A stretch of DNA of 27,632 nt from a virus. Every line of letters begins with the position of its first letter. Position 1 is the stretch's first letter. The stretch covers positions 1-27,632 of IMG/VR virus record IMGVR_UViG_3300042861_000435; one strand, given 5' to 3'. Positions 25,885-27,632 of this stretch are shown piece by piece. Both the position numbers and the translations under genes were made by a program. The notes under the pieces are model-generated. The model worked only from the letters and a program-made list of their open reading frames with translations. It did not search any database and was not told where the DNA came from.

Positions 25885-25903
25885 AAACTTTTTTTTATAT
25901 TTG
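25874..25903 (+). promoter_or_regulatory. Promoter for the gene at 26005
   Basis: TTG at 25874-25876 (inside the end of the methyltransferase gene), a 19-nt spacer and TATATTTG at 25896-25903 match the Bacteroidota consensus. The transcript would start near 25907, giving a leader of almost 100 nt with strong complementary segments. Confidence 0.7.
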
Positions 25904-25912
25904 CAAAACAAT

Positions 25913-25993
25913 CTGGTCAGAGATTGAAACAAAAACTATAATCGATCCTAATTTTGCCTACTCTGACCAGTAGGATTTAAGTTAGGATTTTTT
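25913..25993 (+). promoter_or_regulatory. Structured 5' leader A: pseudoknot or attenuator-like RNA
   Basis: CTGGTCAGAG (25913-25922) is the exact complement of CTCTGACCAG (25961-25970). Inside the loop, ATCCTAA (25945-25951) is the exact complement of TTAGGAT (25982-25988), which lies outside the first stem and runs into six Ts (25988-25993). The crossed pairing is an H-type pseudoknot: stem 1 of 10 bp, stem 2 of 7 bp, and loops of 22, 9 and 11 nt. ATCCTA can also pair with a closer TAGGAT (25971-25976), and CCTAC (25957-25961) with GTAGG (25970-25974), so alternative folds exist. The second stem plus T-run also resembles a weak terminator. The ATG at 26005 follows after AATTAAACATT. Confidence 0.6.
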
Positions 25994-26004
25994 AATTAAA
26001 CATT

Positions 26005-26448
26005 ATGAGTAAAGACCTTTTCCAATTAATGAGGGAGCAAGAAATTCAAACGAGCAATTTCCTGCCAAACAAGCTAGAGATCCAGCTATCTGCAAAAACA
26101 TTTATCAAAGAAGTGTTAGATGCTGGAGAGATTGACAAATTTGAACTATTAGCGCAAGCCAAAAGAATGGGCGAAGCGTTAGAAGTGATTAACGCTGAAC
26201 TAATTAAAGTTATCCCACAAGAGAACTTCGAGGGTTACGGACTAAAAGGTACATTCAGAAGCGGTGGCGAAACAATTAACTACAAAGATTGTGAAGTTTG
26301 GAACGACATCAACCGAGAATTAAAAGAACGTGAGGACTTACTAAAATTAGCTTTGAAATCGCATAATGAAATATACGATGAGGCTGGAGTACAGGTGCCT
26401 AAAGTATCAACAACGCCACGCAAAAGTAGTTTGGCTATATCATTTTAA
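26005..26448 (+). CDS. Unknown early-type protein with its own structured leader
   Basis: The 147-residue protein is mainly helical in its first half (LEIQLSAKTFIKEVLDAGEI, then FELLAQAKRMGEALEVINAE). It has a glycine turn (YGLKGTFRSGGETINYKD), a second helix (NRELKEREDLLKLALKSHNE) and a polar tail (STTPRKSSLAISF). No motif is recognised. The position immediately before an ssDNA-binding-type gene, with a strong promoter of its own, suggests a DNA-metabolism role. Two-helix phage proteins found next to ssDNA-binding proteins are a loose parallel only. The ATG lies in the ACATTATG context. Confidence 0.72.
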   Translation: MSKDLFQLMREQEIQTSNFLPNKLEIQLSAKTFIKEVLDAGEIDKFELLAQAKRMGEALEVINAELIKVIPQENFEGYGLKGTFRSGGETINYKDCEVWNDINRELKEREDLLKLALKSHNEIYDEAGVQVPKVSTTPRKSSLAISF

Positions 26449-26461
26449 TTTACTATTTTTA
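26430..26461 (+). promoter_or_regulatory. Probable promoter for the ssDNA-binding-type gene
   Basis: TTTG at 26430-26433, a 20-nt spacer and TATTTTTA at 26454-26461 resemble the consensus, though the last base is A rather than G. It lies across the end of the preceding gene. Predicted transcripts start near 26465, a dozen bases before the pseudoknot-forming segment. Confidence 0.45.
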
Positions 26462-26477
26462 CATATCATAATTAACC

Positions 26478-26509
26478 GATGCAAGGTTCGGGCATCTTAA
26501 CTCCGATCC
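26478..26509 (+). promoter_or_regulatory. Structured 5' leader B: compact H-type pseudoknot candidate upstream of the ssDNA-binding-type gene
   Basis: Stem 1 pairs GATGC (26478-26482) with GCATC (26492-26496). Its loop segment GGTTCGG (26485-26491) pairs with CCGATCC (26503-26509), six of seven pairs with one T-T mismatch. Loops are 2, 0 and 6 nt, a good geometry for a coaxially stacked H-type pseudoknot. It is followed by an A/T-only stretch to the ATG at 26528. A competing hairpin CCGA/TCGG (26476-26479 with 26488-26491) is possible. Confidence 0.55.
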
Positions 26510-26527
26510 ATAAATAAATATAATATT

Positions 26528-27232
26528 ATGAGTACTTCAAACCGCAGACAAGCGTTTGCACAACCACAAACAAACCCAGCCACTAAGTTTATTGAGTGGA
26601 AATCAAACGACAAGTGTTTTAACTACTACGACAAGGAAGCACAGAAAAATGTAGAGATACCTTTGCCTTTCAAGTTCTTAGTACTAGACGAACTACACAG
26701 TATTAAAGGTTGGAATGATGCAAGTTCAAGCAATATTTACTCCAACGAAGTGAAATTCATTTCAAAAGAAGTAATGACAGTTAAACCTTTCAAGGGTAAC
26801 GAGATTGCCAAAGGTTATTACAAAGACATTAAGGATAAAGTTGTTGCTGCTGGAGGACATTACACCAAGTCTATTTATGTTATGCTTGAGGATGGTTCAC
26901 TAGCAAACATATCACTAAAAGGATCTGGAGTTCAAAAGTGGGGAGATTTTACACAGAAAACACGCAACAGACTTGCAGACGAGTGGGTAATAGTTGCAAA
27001 AGCAGAAGATGGTAAAAAAGGAGCAGTTAAGTTCTCAACACCAAGTTTCTCTTTTGCAAACTCTATATCTGATCAAGAAGCTAATATGGCAGACGAAGCG
27101 TTTAACATATTAGAATCATACCTTAAAACATACTTAGCAAAAGCAGATATTGATGTTGTATTAAATGGAGATATAGCAAATGACTTTAATGATATGCAGG
27201 ATGCCGATGATGATGATGGATTAGACTTTTAA
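26528..27232 (+). CDS. Single-stranded-DNA-binding-type protein with acidic C-terminal tail
   Basis: The 234-residue protein would coat single-stranded DNA during phage replication or recombination. The core has a beta-rich, aromatic composition: IEWKSNDKCFNYYDKEAQKN, then FKFLVLDELHSIKGWND, YSNEVKFIS, GGHYTKSIYVMLEDGSLANI and KGSGVQKWGDF. The pattern resembles phage ssDNA-binding proteins. The end is strongly acidic and finishes in Phe (DMQDADDDDGLDF), as in SSB and T7 gp2.5 tails, which recruit partners and regulate DNA binding. No OB-fold can be proved by eye. The gene has its own promoter and structured leader and is followed by a strong terminator, so it is a single-gene unit, suited to autogenous control. 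Confidence 0.75.
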   Translation: MSTSNRRQAFAQPQTNPATKFIEWKSNDKCFNYYDKEAQKNVEIPLPFKFLVLDELHSIKGWNDASSSNIYSNEVKFISKEVMTVKPFKGNEIAKGYYKDIKDKVVAAGGHYTKSIYVMLEDGSLANISLKGSGVQKWGDFTQKTRNRLADEWVIVAKAEDGKKGAVKFSTPSFSFANSISDQEANMADEAFNILESYLKTYLAKADIDVVLNGDIANDFNDMQDADDDDGLDF

Positions 27233-27283: not shown

Positions 27284-27528
27284 TTGACCGCTAAAGCAGT
27301 CAATGATATTAGTTTTTTAAAAGTACACAAGTACACTTTCACATACCTTTCTATATCATAGGAAATAAAAATAAATTGAAAATTATTTTTTAAAATAAAT
27401 TTTAGTCAAAAAAAATGAAAAAGTGTACTATTGACACGTTAAGTATTGATTTTATTGGGGTTTGAGTCAGTACACTTTTTTTTATTATAATTTATAAAAA
27501 AAAACATACTTATATTAAAAATAAAGTT
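27284..27528. promoter_or_regulatory. Intergenic regulatory region with GTACAC repeats
   Basis: No ORF of credible quality is present. The hexamer GTACAC or its complement occurs at 27323-27328, 27331-27336, 27423-27428 and 27470-27475. Three copies extend to AAGTACACTTT-like sites: 27329-27339, 27469-27480, and 27418-27429 in reverse. The last two form a 12-bp perfect inverted repeat (AAAAAGTGTACT with AGTACACTTTTT) separated by 39 bases. A hairpin ATTGAC/GTCAAT lies at 27283-27304. Spaced operator-like repeats in A/T-rich DNA suggest repressor or replication-initiator binding. Confidence 0.55.
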
Positions 27529-27536
27529 TATATTTG
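27529..27536 (+). promoter_or_regulatory. -7 box TATATTTG before leader C
   Basis: TATATTTG fits TAnnTTTG. No TTG lies 17-23 nt upstream, so an activator or the upstream repeats may be needed. Transcription would start near 27540, three to five bases before the first pairing segment of leader C. Confidence 0.5.
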
Positions 27537-27543
27537 TTCTCGG

Positions 27544-27623
27544 AGTGGTAGCCAATTATAAACTTATTACAGAACCTCATTACCACGCAACTACCACTGC
27601 TGGTAATGGGGTTTATTTTTTTT
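27544..27623 (+). ncRNA. Structured leader or small RNA C with terminator-like second stem
   Basis: AGTGGTAG (27544-27551) is the exact complement of CTACCACT (27591-27598). Between them lies a segment (27572-27585, core CATTACCA at 27578-27585) that pairs with 27601-27614 (core TGGTAATG): eight perfect core pairs extended to 14 with G-U pairs. A run of eight Ts starts at 27616. The second stem plus T-run is a good intrinsic terminator with the first stem's 3' arm in its loop. The two stems cross in pseudoknot order. With only two bases (27599-27600) between the 3' arms, both full stems may not coexist, so a switch is possible. The element could be a roughly 80-nt RNA or a leader; the downstream gene lies outside the window. 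Confidence 0.6.
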
Positions 27624-27632
27624 AACTAAATC

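Follow-up and report, generated by a model that had tools for sequence, protein, structure and literature searches.

The gene coding for an SSB-type protein of the family phrog_6706 is preceded, in the phage DNA analysed here, by an H-type pseudoknot which is real on comparative grounds and lies at the coordinates originally predicted for it. The alignment of homologous leaders establishes the structure of this element, its conservation, its position and its tie to the phrog_6706 gene. By analogy with gene 32 of phage T4, the leader seems likely to act as an autogenous translational operator, in which the SSB-type protein would nucleate on the knot, coat the A/U start region and repress its own translation.

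The leader and its gene

The window, by which is meant the whole stretch of DNA analysed, is the IMG/VR virus record IMGVR_UViG_3300042861_000435 (27,632 bases), and its relevant features are collected in Table 1. The window knot has the geometry 5/2/7/0/6, with the 5' strand of S2 directly abutting the 3' strand of S1 (gap 0), and its 3' edge lies 18 nt upstream of the start codon. The original prediction had described a crossed-pair element with loops of 2, 0 and 6 nt, followed by an A/T-only run leading into the ATG, and every coordinate of the stems, the loops and the run agrees with the sequence; the single mismatch mentioned for the stems is a U-U in S2 (26487/26507). When the window leader was folded with ViennaRNA, which cannot draw pseudoknots, S2 was retained in the nested fold and S1 was absent. 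Folding of a single sequence thus misses S1, and the evidence for the knot is comparative.

Table 1. Features of the phrog_6706 leader and of related elements, in window coordinates unless a locus is given.
Feature	Position	Strand	Basis or remark
Promoter -7-box-like element TATTTTTAC	26454..26462	+	Sequence; relatives have TATATTTAC/TATATTTG; presumably of the Bacteroidota TAnnTTTG promoter type
Putative transcript start	~6-8 nt beyond the -7-box-like element	+	
TCATAAT arm	26466..26472	+	Perfectly complementary to ATTATGA (26525-26531) around the start codon
Stem 1 (S1), 5' strand GATGC	26478..26482	+	Alignment, covariation
Loop 1 (L1), AA	26483..26484	+	2 nt in 132/132 knot-bearing leaders
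Stem 2 (S2), 5' strand GGTTCGG	26485..26491	+	Alignment, covariation
S1, 3' strand GCATC	26492..26496	+	Alignment, covariation
Loop 3 (L3), TTAACT, six bases	26497..26502	+	Alignment, common descriptor
S2, 3' strand CCGATCC	26503..26509	+	Alignment, covariation
A/T-only segment with UAAA repeats, up to the ATG	26510..26527	+	Proposed second part of the operator
SSB-type protein gene, phrog_6706, 234 aa, tail DDDDGLDF	26528..27232	+	ATG at 26528
Larger crossed-stem leaders	25896-25992 (before ATG 26005), 27529-27624; L021:4845-4938; L164, L177, L174, others		

The TCATAAT arm at the 5' end belongs to a wider pattern: of 61 distinct type-I leaders, 58 carry a complement of at least 7 nt (7-10 nt) to the start-codon region, whereas about 12% of shuffled flanks do. 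Leaders that do not adjoin their own promoter lack the TCATAAT form, as do the other leader types. Judging from this distribution, the arm may either be linked to the promoter or act against the start codon, possibly by forming an anti-start helix with it.

The function of phrog_6706 is listed as unknown, and the protein has no match in Pfam or NCBIfam. Its C-terminal end is nonetheless characteristic: the last residue is aromatic in 122 of the 129 proteins of the family, and at least four acidic residues are found among the last ten in 120/129. A DDDIPF-like acidic tail occurs in E. coli SSB, and SSB-like tails are also seen here, as DDDIPF in locus L321 and DEIPF in L145. The genes adjoining the ssb homologue code for a primase-helicase, an SF2 helicase and a VRR-NUC nuclease, and the homologues in mycobacteriophages adjoin a primase/polymerase. 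Because of the acidic, Phe-ending tail and the replication-gene neighbours, SSB activity of the phrog_6706 protein is well supported, if indirectly, which assigns a likely function to a family listed without one. With regard to an OB fold, AlphaFold models were of low confidence (pTM 0.21 and 0.38, with 20 and 42 homologues, respectively), fold searches gave no SSB at a significant score, and profile searches of the PDB with the protein gave no credible match.

Some further elements were observed close to the leader. A conserved 147-aa protein without a family match is encoded immediately before ssb in many of the phages (26005-26448 in the window). An inverted repeat at 27418-27490 of the window (AAAGTGTAC...GTACACTTT) has its arms about 50 nt from each other and a T-run after it, and GTACAC-type repeats resembling it occur in L167 and L172. 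By eye, sequences resembling tRNA genes stand directly before the ssb knot leader in L321 (upstream of 3001) and in L322.

Covariation and spread of the knot

Close homologues were collected by protein searches of IMG/VR, which gave 30 loci and then 80. Every full leader listed from these loci contains the knot, with stems that are altered in sequence yet still match: S1 occurs as GATGC/GCATC, GCTCG/CGAGC, GTTGG/CCAAC and AGGGT/GCCCT, and S2 in some 30 combinations. Over 49 distinct homologous cores, 99.1% of the 588 pair cells are standard pairs (100% paired in S1, 98.5% in S2), and compensatory changes are found in 10 of the 12 pairs (S1 5/5, S2 5/7), the remaining two S2 pairs being invariant G-C. 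Both sides are changed in 102 cells of these cores, where shuffling predicts 14.8±3.5, and the cores reach a covariation score of 0.605, compared with 0.160±0.015 for shuffled cores and at most 0.176 for slid registers; sliding the register by 1-3 columns reduces pairing to 31-55%. The original prediction had proposed covariation among leaders of homologous ssb genes as a check on the knot, and both stems clearly covary. G-U pairs on the mRNA strand account for 44 of the 588 cells, where the opposite strand would have A-C mismatches, which indicates that the element functions as RNA of the mRNA strand. The near-invariant bases of the type-I leaders are AA, GG/CC and the TAA in L3.

The whole of IMG/VR was also scanned with a pattern consisting only of L1-GG, TAA and CCATAAANAAA, so that neither S1 nor the inner pairs of S2 entered into it. 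Of the 99 matches obtained, 89 precede an ssb homologue, and in every one of these S1 is paired at 5/5 and S2 at no fewer than 6/7 positions. One match (L036) precedes a GIY-YIG homing endonuclease inserted in an ssb leader, and in the last nine both an ssb start and a full S1 are lacking. In L036 (1-1370, minus strand), the GIY-YIG/NUMOD3 endonuclease lies within the ssb leader with one knot each before the endonuclease and before ssb, and L082 and L325 look similar.

Two further scans reached homologues at about 40% protein identity, whose leaders have almost no sequence in common with type I and retain the knot geometry. Examples are the knots of L332 (GCCG-AA-GCGGTTA-CGGC-AATT-TAATCGT), L334 (GCCG-AC-GCGCTTA-CGGC-AAGAT-TAAGCGT) and L371 (GTAGG-AT-GCTTTCC-CCTAC-ATATTT-GGAAAGC). 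In total the knot was found in 132 of 135 distinct leaders, a count in which type I is over-represented since some type-I loci were retrieved through the motif pattern; among the divergent leaders obtained from protein searches it is present in 31/33, the rate of the descriptor in dinucleotide shuffles of divergent leaders being 0.7%. The 132 knots have an S1 of 4-5 bp, an L1 of 2 nt, an S2 of 7 positions, no L2 and an L3 of 4-6 nt, and 15-22 nt separate their 3' edge from the ATG. Distinct strand pairs number 25 for S1 and 55 for S2, and the knot occurs in all protein clusters, both at 70% identity (22/22) and at 60% (13/13). That the leader types share so little primary sequence fits recognition by shape.

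The distribution of the knot follows the gene. Among the other genes of the same loci, 14 of 1104 leaders (1.3%) match the descriptor, and the only strong case is the homing endonuclease within the ssb leader; the pool of control genes was enlarged with loci from a relaxed pattern scan, a scan that was itself kept out of the exclusivity counts. The knot is also retained in internal leaders, namely that of the second cistron of L036 and those of L021/L022, where it stands behind a crossed-stem U-run element. The protein family occurs on contigs of Flavobacterium and Bacteroidetes MAGs as well, again with the knot, while the same descriptor finds no pseudoknot with the mycobacteriophage homologues. 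In L387 (upstream of 2988), which is one of the three descriptor failures, the S2 arms (CTGAGG...CTGAGG) repeat in direct and not in inverted orientation, so that stem 2 seems to be naturally broken.

Possible mode of action and alternative explanations

The near-fixed distance to the ATG, the retention of the knot in internal leaders and the lack of it in front of other genes point to control of translation by the protein which the gene encodes rather than to a general enhancer, a 5'-end cap or a riboswitch, and we infer that the SSB-type protein binds the leader and represses translation. The mRNA would begin about 60 nt upstream of the ATG and fold into the H-type knot (5/2/7/0/6), with an A/U-only ribosome-binding region 3' of it. 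When the SSB-type protein is in excess of the available ssDNA, one protomer would nucleate on the knot and further protomers would cover the A/U run and the start codon, so that binding of the 30S subunit is blocked; ssDNA arising from phage replication would draw the protein off, and translation would restart. In type-I leaders, the 5' UCAUAAU arm paired with the start codon would form a second gate. Points against the operator are the shortness of the A/U run, which at a site size of about 7 nt would accommodate no more than 2-3 protomers, and the lack of the knot in the mycobacteriophage homologues.

Besides the knot, crossed-stem leaders of another, larger class, with a U-run at the end, occur in these phages (65 distinct elements). 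These have a TAnnTTTG promoter with the 5' arm of S1 usually 7-13 nt past the -7 box, the 3' arm of S1 within the loop of a terminator-like hairpin, then the U-run, and an ATG usually 10-24 nt further on. They precede genes for the primase-helicase, the 147-aa protein, HNH and GIY-YIG endonucleases, and small ORFs. Such elements were found at 34 of 1091 TAnnTTTG sites, compared with 4 after shuffling, and a test for a 5' hairpin gave a weak excess (80% vs 58% shuffled); their stems vary widely in sequence. The layout of the class resembles that of a conditional attenuator, in which a kissing loop may take part. As these larger leaders stand before other genes in the same phages, a leader pseudoknot alone is no proof of control by an SSB.

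The knot could alternatively enhance translation constitutively, serve as a standby or spacer structure, or stabilise the 5' end of the mRNA, keeping the start region open without being bound by the protein. Flavobacteriia depend little on Shine-Dalgarno pairing, which is compatible with such a role, as are the position of the knot 3' edge just beyond the expected ribosome footprint and, in most leaders, the proximity of the knot to the 5' end of the transcript. An enhancer should, however, be carried by other strongly expressed genes, and among the 1104 control leaders 14 match, the homing endonuclease being the single clear case; protection of a 5' end is ill-suited to a knot which is kept in L036 and L021/L022 at internal positions; we consider this explanation unlikely. 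Less likely still is that the knot is the target of some other host or phage protein (ribosomal protein S1 or a RegA-like repressor, for example) which times early versus late expression. Conservation of geometry above sequence would suit any shape-recognising protein, but a global regulator should have several targets, and confinement to one gene in 13 clusters most simply points to the product of that gene.

Compact H-type pseudoknots adjoining start codons are also known from the preQ1-I and SAM-II riboswitches, and the few near-invariant bases of the type-I leaders could be taken for a ligand site. The conserved bases differ between leader types, though, leaving no common binding pocket, and there is no Rfam match; a small-molecule riboswitch was rejected as the best explanation for want of a shared pocket, and we regard it as very improbable. 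We give as little credence to an element acting at the DNA level, be it an ssDNA fold-back at an origin or recombination site, or the target of a homing endonuclease. The GIY-YIG endonuclease inserted in the L036 ssb leader, comparable to segG, which lies before T4 gene 32, speaks for such an element; the tie of the knot to the ATG and the strand-specific G-U pairs speak against it, and it was on account of these pairs that a DNA element was rejected as the best explanation.

Comparison with gene 32 and other known systems

No description of the phrog_6706 leader knot was found in the literature searched, and Rfam, at gathering and E-value thresholds, returned nothing relevant, the covariance models of preQ1-I, SAM-II and STAXI being unmatched. 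In rpsO the ribosome is trapped by a pseudoknot that overlaps its binding site, whereas the phrog_6706 knot ends 15-22 nt upstream of the ATG. The operator of rpsO (ribosomal protein S15) is likewise autogenous, and its pseudoknot lies at the start region (PMC3014915). STAXI motifs (PMC2864571; Rfam RF01728) are also pseudoknots near genes including ssb, but they are arranged in tandem (2-3 repeats), often have UUCG loops and lie near various DNA-handling genes of enterobacteria, while the phrog_6706 leaders have a single knot at a near-fixed distance from one gene and no match to RF01728.

The closest resemblance is to gene 32 of T4, for which the mechanism is established: gp32 nucleates at the knot before coating the UUAAA/UAAA segment (PMC535899, PMC3014915). 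The same descriptor applied to T4 gene 32 gives TGCC-A-GCTATGA-GGTA-AAGTG-TCATAGC, that is 4/1/7/0/5, ending 39 nt before the ATG. The phrog_6706 leaders share with the gene 32 operator of T4, T2 and RB69 (PMC535899, PMC3014915) an H-type knot with a 7-bp S2 and no L2 gap, and S1 of 4-5 bp, L1 of 1-2 nt and L3 of 4-6 nt are ranges which span both. In both cases an A/U-rich segment with UAAA repeats extends to the start codon, and an SSB-type replication gene follows. A GIY-YIG homing endonuclease is found directly upstream in L036 and in T4, where it is segG, which adjoins gene 32 and whose reading frame overlaps the knot (PMC535899). The two differ in L1 (2 nt in phrog_6706 leaders, 1 nt in T4 gene 32), and the proposed likeness to gene 32 holds for the geometry, which is almost equal under one descriptor, and less well for the A/U run, which is 15-22 nt long as against 39 nt in T4. 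Operators of the T4 type have more than 40 nt of a less structured, A/U-rich UUAAA/UAAA segment, while in the phrog_6706 leaders the shorter run is A/T-only with UAAA repeats. Unlike gene 32, these leaders have no Shine-Dalgarno sequence and belong to phages of Flavobacteriia, and the proteins have no sequence relation (no Pfam match to support gp32 homology; hhalign probability 0.2%), which bears out the Bacteroidota phage and the unrelated SSB-type protein of the original prediction. Since the proteins are unrelated, the leader is not a member of the gene 32 operator family, which it would resemble in its mode of action from outside.

The same off-switch has thus probably evolved twice, in T4 and in Flavobacterium-type phages. 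More tentatively, two unrelated SSB families could have arrived independently at almost the same knot as autogenous operator, in which case its shape would offer ssDNA-binding proteins, themselves blind to sequence, a general means of picking out their own mRNA. According to a 2010 review, translational autoregulation through a viral pseudoknot may be confined to the T4-type gene 32 knot (PMC3014915), and how gp32 distinguishes its own mRNA from other nucleic acid is described as unclear (PMC535899). With a second, unrelated family that has nearly the same knot, at least 13 protein clusters and dozens of natural variants, this question of gp32-type discrimination becomes directly testable, and the constant features, namely the 2-nt L1, the lack of L2, the 7-bp S2 and the distance to the ATG, are the candidate determinants of recognition.
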